Positions 30,552 through 50,000 of a stretch of 64,000 bases of DNA are shown piece after piece (position 1 is the first letter of the stretch; each line of letters opens with the position of its first letter). Under the pieces are notes generated by a model, which did no database searches, was not told the DNA's origin, and saw nothing but the letters and a program-made list of their open reading frames with translations. Position numbers and translations under genes: made by a program. This stretch comes from Thiomicrorhabdus xiamenensis (GTDB taxonomy: Bacteria > Pseudomonadota > Gammaproteobacteria > Thiomicrospirales > Thiomicrospiraceae): NCBI RefSeq assembly GCF_013282625.1, contig NZ_CP054020.1, positions 434,001 through 498,000 of the forward strand, in the 5' to 3' direction.

Positions 30552-30866
30552 ATGTACGCAGTTATTAAAACCGGTGGTAAGCAGTATCGAGTTCGTGAAG
30601 GTCAAATCCTACGCATTGAATCTTTGAATGCAGAAGCAGGTGATGCGATTGAGTTTGACGAAGTATTGATGGTTGGTGAAGGTGCAGACGTTAAAGTTGG
30701 TGCGCCTCTAGTTGAAGGTGCTAAAGTTGCAGCGACTGTTGAATCAAACGGTCGTGGTAAAAAAGTAACCATCATCAAATTCCGTCGTCGTAAGAACCGC
30801 TCGAAAACTAAGCAAGGCCACCGTCAGAACTACACTGAAGTTAAAATCGGTAAAATCTCAGCTTAA
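30552..30866 (+). CDS. rplU: 50S ribosomal protein L21
   Basis: 50S protein whose placement depends on L20. The 104 residues start [18 protein letters not shown] and end with the signature [30 protein letters not shown] precedes the ATG. Paired with rpmA, as usual, with a 99-base gap that contains a hairpin. Confidence 0.97.
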
Positions 30867-43817: not shown

Positions 43818-44159
43818 ATGTCTGATACACCAGCACCTCTAGTTTTTACCGAAGCGGCGGCCTCTAAAGTCAGCGGCTTGATCGAAGATGAACAGAACCC
43901 GAATCTGAAACTGCGTGTTTATATCACCGGTGGCGGTTGTTCCGGCTTTTCGTATGGGTTTACCTTTGACGAAAATCAGGCCGATGACGATACGGTTGTC
44001 GAGAAAGACGGCGTGACTCTTCTGGTTGACCCGATGAGTTTCCAGTATCTTGTCGGTGCAAAAATCGATTATTTGGAAGATTTACAAGGCGCGCGCTTTG
44101 TTATCGAAAACCCTAATGCAACTACGACCTGTGGTTGCGGTTCTTCATTTAGCGTATAA
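43818..44159 (+). CDS. erpA: Iron-sulfur cluster insertion protein ErpA
   Basis: A-type carrier that delivers Fe-S clusters to apoproteins, including IspG/IspH. The 113 residues have the three ligand cysteines in [11 protein letters not shown] and [29 protein letters not shown] is typical of ErpA. E. coli ErpA has 114 residues. AAAGGA precedes the ATG. Followed 39 bases later by citrate synthase. Confidence 0.94.
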
Positions 44160-47694: not shown

Positions 47695-48348
47695 TTATTG
47701 AGTGTTCTGCATCTTCTTGACTTGATTGCAGCTCGTTGTAAATTTGTTTTTAAGCTGTGTTTTGTCGAGGGTTTTCAGCTCATTGGTAACTTCCTGATGA
47801 ATGCCGGCGAGTTGTTGCAGGGCTTGGTTTTTGCCGTTCATACCGCCGGCGATAATGATTAACGTATTCGCAGCAGTTAGCTTTTGAGCTTGCTGTTTCA
47901 GACCGTAAGAATTCGAAATAAGCGCGCATGTCGCGATAATGTGAATTTTATTTTGCAGGCTTTCCGGCAGTTCTGAAACTTGCAAGCCTTTGAAGTTCTC
48001 ATTCGTCTGCAGGTTTTCATTGAGACAGATTTTATCAAAAAGCTTTTGTTTACTTTGCGAGCTGTATTCGCGGTAGCTGCGTTCGAAAGGCTCTATTTTT
48101 TGAGCCACCAGCTTCTCCTGCTCGTCGGCCGCTATAGAGGGATTATTTTGTTGATGAAGTTTGCGCAATTTCTGAGTGAATTGTTGGCGTTGCTGCGGTT
48201 CTGCAAGCGCGGCGCAAATGGCATAACGCTGTTCCTGTTGTTTTAACTGTCGAGCGTCTGTGCTATCCGCCAAAGACGCTTGTGTGAATAGAACTGAAAA
48301 GATGAAGAGATAGGACGTTAGATTTTTTGAAAGTCGTGATGTCTCCAT
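47695..48348 (-). CDS. Exported protein of unknown function
   Basis: 217 residues with a signal peptide (about 1-28, core LTSYLFIFSVLFTQASLA, cleavage probable before DSTDAR). The mature part is helical, rich in Gln, Lys and Glu, with four cysteines (in YAICAALA, DKICLNEN, IATCALIS and TTSCNQV) that could form two disulfide bonds in the periplasm. No motif recognised. Cotranscription with the two-helix membrane protein suggests a small envelope module. Confidence 0.65.
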   Translation of the reverse strand: METSRLSKNLTSYLFIFSVLFTQASLADSTDARQLKQQEQRYAICAALAEPQQRQQFTQKLRKLHQQNNPSIAADEQEKLVAQKIEPFERSYREYSSQSKQKLFDKICLNENLQTNENFKGLQVSELPESLQNKIHIIATCALISNSYGLKQQAQKLTAANTLIIIAGGMNGKNQALQQLAGIHQEVTNELKTLDKTQLKNKFTTSCNQVKKMQNTQ

Positions 48349-48470: not shown

Positions 48471-48506
48471 ATAAAAAAGGCGATAACTCGAAGGTTACCG
48501 CCTTTT
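48471..48506 (-). terminator. Terminator of the Gly/Leu-repeat gene
   Basis: On the minus strand GGCGGTAAC (48502-48494) pairs with GTTATCGCC (48487-48479), with one G-U, followed by six T. Confidence 0.85.
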
Positions 48507-48554: not shown

Positions 48555-49574
48555 TTACAGAAGACCACCTAGAAGACCGTTGTCACCGCCCAGGATTCCG
48601 CCAAGAAGACCGTTGTCACCAAGCAGCCCACCAAGAAGTCCGCCGGTTTCAACGGTTGCGCCTGCAGAAACAGAGGCATCCGCAGAGCTGCCGCCAAGAA
48701 GACCGTCAAGCAGACCGTCGTTGCCAGATAGTAGATCGCCTAGTCCTAGCAGTCCACCTTCATCACCGCCGCCTAGTAGACCGCCAAGCAATCCGCCTCC
48801 AGATAGCAGGTCACCGACGATTGGCAAGTTACCCAGGGTGCCTTCAAGAAGATCGGTTACCGTATCAACTACACCCGTTACAACGCCGTGCTCACCGATC
48901 AAGGTGTTTAGTAGTCCGCCGACCAGTCCGTCTTCACCTAGAAGACCACCGACAAGGCCGTTGCTTCCAAGAAGGTCGCCGACAATTGGAAGGCCGTTCA
49001 ATAGGCCGCCTTCACCACCTAGAAGACCGCCTAGAAGTCCGCCTTCGGCACCACCTAGAAGATCGCCAACGATTGGAAGGCCACCTAGAAGTCCGCCGAC
49101 CAGACCGTCTTCACCTAGAAGTCCACCAAGAAGACCGCCATCTGCGTTGCCGCCAAGAAGACCGCCAACAACTGGTAGACCTTCAACAAGGCCGCCTACA
49201 GTGCCAAGTAGACCGCCTACTAAACCTTCTGGACCTAGTAGGTTAGGAAGAAGTCCTTCTGGGCCAGTGATGCCGGCTAGAACGTTGTTATCGATTGATT
49301 CAACAAGTCCTAGAACGTCGCTGACGACTGGAAGGCTGGTAACAGTGCCGACAACGTCATTGATAAGTGTTTCGCCTGGAAGAATGGAATGCAGTGTTGA
49401 GGTTACGAAACGTACGTCTTCGCCAAGAAGCGGAAGGCTGTGAAGGGTATCTAGTAGTGGTGATACGGAATCACCGACAACAGGCAAGCTTTGCAATGTG
49501 CCTACAGCAGCGGCAAGGCCGTCATCGGAATGTTTGGTAGTTGGGGTTTCAAGACCTAGAAGTGAAACGAGCAT
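48555..49574 (-). CDS. Low-complexity acidic GLLGG-repeat protein
   Basis: 339 residues of unusual composition: Gly, Leu, Val and Asp dominate, with one Lys, one Arg, one Phe and no Cys, Trp or Tyr. From residue 100 it is built of GLLGG/GGLLGGLLG blocks with EDG, GDE, DNG or GGD turns. A second motif, LP(V/I/L)(V/L)(G/S)D/E/G, recurs seven times along the whole chain (SLPVVGD, SLPLLGE, SLPVVSD, GLPVVGG, GLPIVGD twice, NLPIVGD). No signal peptide and no clear transmembrane helix. A strong ribosome site AGGAGAAAGAC, a good promoter and a terminator show it is a real gene. It may be secreted, surface-layered or self-assembling, with acidic turns perhaps binding calcium. I know no family for it. 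Confidence 0.8.
   Translation of the reverse strand: MLVSLLGLETPTTKHSDDGLAAAVGTLQSLPVVGDSVSPLLDTLHSLPLLGEDVRFVTSTLHSILPGETLINDVVGTVTSLPVVSDVLGLVESIDNNVLAGITGPEGLLPNLLGPEGLVGGLLGTVGGLVEGLPVVGGLLGGNADGGLLGGLLGEDGLVGGLLGGLPIVGDLLGGAEGGLLGGLLGGEGGLLNGLPIVGDLLGSNGLVGGLLGEDGLVGGLLNTLIGEHGVVTGVVDTVTDLLEGTLGNLPIVGDLLSGGGLLGGLLGGGDEGGLLGLGDLLSGNDGLLDGLLGGSSADASVSAGATVETGGLLGGLLGDNGLLGGILGGDNGLLGGLL
48570..49260. repeat. Degenerate DNA repeats encoding GLLGG blocks
   Basis: Short units such as CCGCCAAGAAGACCG and CACCTAGAAGTCCGCC recur in many variants at uneven spacing within the coding sequence. Codons differ between copies, so the amino-acid pattern is kept better than the DNA. Such a tract can change length by recombination or slippage. 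Confidence 0.8.
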
Positions 49575-49670
49575 GTCTTTCTCCTGAATTATGTAAAAAA
49601 GTAACTTAATTATTTTTTTGACTGCTGTAAAACAAAATACTGATGTTTAAAAAGCGGCAATACGAAGAGA

Positions 49671-49833: not shown

Positions 49834-50000
49834 AATTGTTAATTGCTAAATTTGCATTAATAAAAGTGTTGCAATGAAGGAGTGGGTCATTACAATAAGG
49901 ACGGTAAACAATTTATTTAACTTGTTTTAAGTAGCTAGAAAAGTTCATTGTTTATTATGCTTCGTATATTTTGATTACCCGCCTATGGCGGGTTTTTTTA
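49834..50000 (+). ncRNA. Candidate small RNA on the plus strand
   Basis: The 483-base gap 49575-50057 holds a plus-strand promoter-like TTGTTA, 16 bp, TAATAA, and about 130 bases later a plus-oriented terminator (49975-50000), but no plus-strand gene to end. An 18-codon frame (49874-49930, MKEWVITIRTVNNLFNLF) lies within but has no ribosome site. A small RNA is the simplest reading. Confidence 0.35.
49975..50000 (+). terminator. Plus-strand terminator with no upstream plus-strand gene
   Basis: CCCGCC (49978-49983), loop TAT, GGCGGG (49987-49992), seven T. On the minus strand the hairpin is followed by TAATC, not a T-run, so it is not a good terminator for the kinase gene. Confidence 0.8.

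Follow-up and report, generated by a model that had tools for sequence, protein, structure and literature searches.

Here, we describe a glycine- and leucine-rich repeat protein, GL-A, encoded in the 64,000-nucleotide stretch of DNA analysed (the window) from Thiomicrorhabdus xiamenensis, a marine sulfur-oxidising bacterium. GL-A is one of about twenty homologues forming a family that none of the libraries searched describes and that, within the genomes searched, is restricted to Thiomicrorhabdus. We consider it about an even bet (probability near 0.5) that GL-A is exported without a signal peptide by a type I system of the LapB/LssB type and forms a glycine-zipper coat or matrix on the cell surface, held there by LapA-type anchors under LapG control. 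This reading starts from what we observed directly: the family itself, its conservation, the pairing of its B and C genes with genes for retention-module proteins, a GL motif embedded in some of these partners, and the presence of exporters and LapG in the genome.

The gene and its parts lie on the minus strand as follows.

48555..49574, minus strand: GL-A, Gly-Leu repeat protein of 339 aa (open reading frame; orthologues in G026, G011, G013 and G024)
49302..49574, minus strand: residues 1-91, the less repetitive N-terminal part, from the alignment
48690..49301, minus strand: residues 92-295, the GLLGG/LPIVGD repeat core, whose length differs between species
48558..48689, minus strand: residues 296-339, a linker rich in Ala, Ser and Asp, then a hydrophobic Gly-Leu end that contains no K or R
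49581..49585, minus strand: Shine-Dalgarno sequence AGGAG, 6 nt before the GL-A ATG
48475..48506, minus strand: intrinsic-terminator-like hairpin of 13 pairs, downstream of GL-A

The first-pass annotation had read here an acidic Gly-Leu protein of 339 residues, poor in basic and aromatic residues and free of cysteine, and our residue counts agree with it (G 91, L 87, V 33, D+E 38, H 4; 27% Gly, 26% Leu; pI 4.05). GL-A contains one Lys and one Arg, a single Phe, and neither Tyr, Trp nor Cys. Its seven LP(V/I)VGD-like motifs were located as LP[VIL][VIL][GS], starting at residues 30, 47, 81, 133, 166, 195 and 250. The proposed strong ribosome site corresponds to the AGGAG, the terminator to the hairpin at 48506-48475 on the same strand, and the AT-rich gaps to flanks of 37% and, upstream of the gene, 28% GC versus 48% in the whole window. 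Only the gene's own promoter found no counterpart, as a sigma-70 scan of the minus strand returned no promoter-like site for GL-A. Plus-strand reading frames overlapping GL-A were rejected as genes; they encode a Pro/Ser/Arg-rich mirror image of the repeats.

GL-A is a real gene under strong purifying selection. Compared with the nearest species (G026, Thiomicrorhabdus sp. 6S3-12; 98% identity), it carries 78 synonymous and 7 nonsynonymous changes (dN/dS 0.03). The other family-member pairs compared gave dN/dS of 0.02-0.07, with dS near saturation in the more distant ones. Codon usage suggests that the product is abundant or highly expressed. The Leu codons (CTT, CTA) follow the usage of ribosomal proteins, unlike those of other window genes (log-likelihood ratio, LLR, +63.6 nats), and the Pro codons are also of ribosomal type (+13.1 nats), while the Gly (-25.3) and Thr (-10.7) codons count against such usage. 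By a CAI-like index, GL-A ranks fourth among the 36 window genes outside the ribosomal cluster, behind those at 30552 and 37237, which we take to be groES and groEL, and the erpA-like gene at 43818.

How widespread is this type of protein? The first-pass annotation could not place it, and this stands after sensitive profile searches: Pfam, NCBIfam and PHROGs profiles and PDB sequences gave no match to GL-A (in NCBIfam no hit even at E<=1), and the literature on GLLGG repeat proteins yielded only papers on frog peptides. With a 14-row profile, 7 of the 32 Thiomicrorhabdus genomes proved to carry GL proteins; the profile detected none in the 31 other genomes of the family and order (63 in total including the genus), nor outside the genus in a 369-genome sample of the class. 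A single genome_contigs scan gave two records. The genome of T. xiamenensis (G000) encodes three GL paralogues, the other two at C1:135001 (type C) and C1:587227 (type B). Five locus types occur, A (that of the window) to E, with proteins of 306-448 aa. The B-type locus adjoins lspA, and the C-type locus adjoins an operon whose reading frames we take to be MoxR/von Willebrand-type genes. Type D is an expanded form; in G031 this paralogue (L036 9792-11069) contains about four 114-bp tandem repeats of 96% identity, which indicates a recent expansion.

The GL-A orthologues (five species including T. xiamenensis) are 327-363 aa long with a core of variable length. Repeat number, which had been put forward for comparison among strains, indeed varies between species, with 5-7 LPxxG motifs in the orthologues and 11-12 in paralogue D. 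Conservation is best in residues 1-91, marked in order by LPVVGD, LPLLGED, TSTLH, LPGE and SLPVVSD, and the C-terminal ends of the paralogues resemble GL-A residues 296-339. The carriers are split between two distant parts of the genus in an ArgC tree, which requires three changes; either an ancestral family with losses or transfer would account for this distribution.

The neighbourhood of the GL-A orthologues is the same where mapped, with a sensor kinase upstream; the G013 locus shares this kinase. Downstream, G011 and G024 have a gene for a small exported protein and hemH. The small protein is encoded in the window at 47695-48348 (minus strand), has an apparent signal peptide but no family match above threshold, and adjoins GL-A in G000, G011 and G024. 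In the gap upstream of GL-A, and divergent from it, we found a second conserved element.

49869-49896, plus strand: promoter-like site for the putative small RNA, from the sigma-70 scan
49903..49998, plus strand: structured, putative small RNA that ends in a terminator of its own, conserved in four species at this locus

The sequence on either side has diverged, but this block of about 95 bp is near-identical in G000, G026 and G011, and G013 has a similar copy. As plus-strand RNA, the block would form three stems and an intrinsic terminator, with a fold 3.2 s.d. more stable than that of shuffled sequences and slight covariation. Rfam gave no match at threshold; the best weak one, to rseX, reached 27 bits where 50 are required. 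No such block was found in G024, where a transposase-like cluster (L039 6917-9194), presumably IS66-like, lies at the expected position between the sensor kinase and GL-A.

What structure could such a sequence adopt? The first-pass annotation had suggested a repetitive fold or glycine-zipper packing. The zipper part gains from the spacing of the glycines: GL-A contains 44 GxxxG motifs versus 24 expected from same-composition shuffles, of which 0 of 2000 reached 44, and 22 GxxxGxxxG motifs versus 6.3 expected. Structure prediction was less telling. AlphaFold2 models from 14-row and 8-row alignments were of low confidence (pLDDT 49 and 32), too uncertain for comparison with solved folds, and the better one consists of short helices with no strands and no sign of a beta-repeat. 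This model fits helix packing without establishing it. Calcium binding by acidic turns had also been proposed; turns of the RTX kind find no support, as GL-A has no GGxGxD motif. GL-A resembles RTX proteins in its acidic, Gly/Asp/Leu-rich sequence and its C-terminal region without basic residues, but differs in lacking the GGxGxDxU nonapeptides. PE_PGRS and other Gly-rich repeat proteins have a low-complexity Gly-rich core of variable length. GL-A shares such a core, but it has no Pfam match and carries Leu pairs at GxxxG spacing rather than GGX triplets.

The genes beside paralogues B and C provide a pointer to a function. In the seven carrier genomes, a retention-module protein is encoded directly after the GL gene on the same strand in 5 of 5 B copies and 6 of 6 C copies, including both loci of T. 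xiamenensis. Since these 11 pairings descend from two inherited loci, we count them as roughly two independent associations. The seven genomes contain 27 retention genes and, by our estimate, some 2,400 genes each, so that even two such pairings are unlikely to arise by chance. The C-type partners, which span about 760-1090 aa when complete, reach 44-64 bits for the LapA retention module (NF033682, retention_LapA; curated cut-off 50 bits) and carry xAAG sites of LapG type behind it (VAAG, TAAG, e.g. ELEATAAG). Acidic repeats make up their bodies, and the partners tested contain no RTX motifs. The B-type partners have about 260 aa. They match the module over its first part only, at 26-36 bits and thus below the cut-off, and no xAAG site was found in them.

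Two species carry the GL motif LLGGIPVVGDLLGG within a retention-module protein: the C partners of G031, starting at residue 485, and of G014, starting at residue 528, contain LLGGIPVVGDLLGGIPVLGDLL and SLLGGIPIVGGLLGEIPVVGDLL. Outside the family and these two partners, the GL pattern occurs in one unrelated reading frame among 421 in the genome stretches analysed, and blastp aligns the neighbouring GL-C protein with the G014 partner at 56% over 32 aa (E=0.001). A shared export signal was considered and dropped, because a profile of the GL C-terminus finds only GL proteins and fails on the C-termini of the partners; a loose resemblance is all that we retain.

Two further observations concern retention proteins as such. 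Those at L034 10019-12829, L040 10134-13412, L063 5618-7987 and L095 1152-3581 have bodies of acidic repeats of ~60 aa (e.g. GSVDQVVDGATDLVDQLIGTDTENLDDGLNALTTDVQELLTGDQTLTEVVDSLLGG) with neither RTX motifs nor adhesin-domain matches, and these possibly represent an undescribed repeat type. At L060 6259-19847 (G000:C1:1696258-1709846), two large retention-module genes lie in a row, one of them interrupted so that it reads as two frames of 1560 and 1103 codons; a frameshift or an assembly error may explain the break.

In agreement with the first-pass annotation, we see no evident signal peptide in GL-A, and its export would require another route. The context of the paralogues points to a type I system of the LapA/LssB kind, and its components are encoded in the genome. 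We found two LssB/LapB-type exporters, both accompanied by genes for a membrane-fusion and a TolC-like protein, and in one of these clusters a large gene, by our reading, ends like an EAL domain. LapG-family proteases are also encoded, as are four retention proteins that exceed the curated cut-off. At least one such exporter is present in 30 of the 32 genomes of the genus, and the LapG family in 31 of 32. LapA-type proteins are held in the outer-membrane channel of their exporter until LapG cuts them, and the cut falls at a di-alanine site that follows the module (PMC6890996). Residues 296-339 of GL-A may serve as a C-terminal export signal. Over its last 60 residues, GL-A has no K or R and abounds in L, D, V and G, a composition resembling the one reported for the C-termini of RTX type I substrates (PMC8861453); the scarcity of K and R spans the whole of GL-A and is not specific to its end.

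Taken together, these findings are best explained if GL proteins leave the cell through LapB/LssB-type type I secretion without a signal peptide. Once outside, they would assemble as bulk subunits by zipper packing of short amphipathic Leu helices, binding one another as well as the GL segments found in LapA-type anchors. The retention proteins would then hold this material at the surface under the control of LapG. The window copy, which stands alone, would serve the same purpose as copies B and C. Purifying selection, the GxxxG excess and the ribosomal-type Leu and Pro codons speak for this reading; the position of copies A, D and E away from retention and exporter genes, the low scores of the B-type partners, the missing RTX motif, the Gly and Thr codons and the low-confidence models speak against it.

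Compared with LapA-type adhesins (NF033682, controlled by LapG and LapD), the likeness lies in the genes beside B and C, in the module and cleavage sites of the C-type partners, in the motif embedded in two of these, in the acidic, RTX-free repeats on both sides, and in the matching exporter and LapG. The GL proteins themselves differ. GL-A has no retention module and hence no di-alanine site for LapG, and the family is small, has no adhesin-domain matches and does not lie beside lapBCE-type genes. Taken as a system, this looks like LapA-type surface display that includes a new Gly-Leu component encoded by genes of its own.

Could GL-A instead remain inside the cell, as a phasin-like scaffold or coat on a hydrophobic inclusion such as sulfur or polyester? 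The lack of an evident signal peptide, the acidic, Leu-rich sequence and the short helices of the low-confidence model would suit this role, yet GL-A has no Pfam phasin match, and the pairing of B and C with LapA-type proteins, and the motif inside two of these, speak against an intracellular coat. In addition, elemental sulfur has been reported as extracellular for the genus (PMC10608990). We regard an intracellular role as unlikely. If we may guess, extracellular sulfur is a conceivable surface for a GL coat.

Somewhat less probable again is an exported adhesive or particle-binding protein that acts free in the medium, independently of LapA-type proteins. Indeed, neither retention nor exporter genes are adjacent to copies A, D and E, and a repetitive, acidic sequence would fit such a protein; the ties of paralogues B and C to retention proteins speak against it, and nothing points to a particular ligand. 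A surface-held glycine-zipper toxin for contact-dependent killing, like CdzC/CdzD of Caulobacter, is highly improbable: the GxxxG excess above composition and the proposed type I export and surface retention recall these surface-held, type I-exported zipper proteins, but Cdz proteins have 84-86 aa and adjoin an exporter and an immunity gene (PMC5380434), whereas GL proteins are far larger, lie in loci that where inspected have no adjacent exporter, give no indication of toxicity, and show a very low dN/dS and a conserved synteny unlike a diversifying toxin, which sets the two apart by description.

In summary, we favour export of GL-A by a LapB/LssB-type system into a zipper coat anchored by LapA-type proteins. 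More tentatively, and with the odds against it, type I export of RTX-free Gly-Leu zipper proteins and their co-assembly with acidic-repeat LapA-type anchors would give rise to a new kind of bacterial surface matrix. Through such co-assembly, control by LapG and c-di-GMP would act on a coat of separate subunits and not on one giant adhesin. If true, some sulfur-oxidising Thiomicrorhabdus would build a surface layer from small, separate Gly-Leu subunits tied to LapA-type anchors, and type I-secreted, LapG-controlled adhesion would extend past the giant RTX adhesins. The GL family, absent from every profile library searched, would then offer a Gly-Leu code for self-assembly that is both very simple in sequence and strongly conserved.
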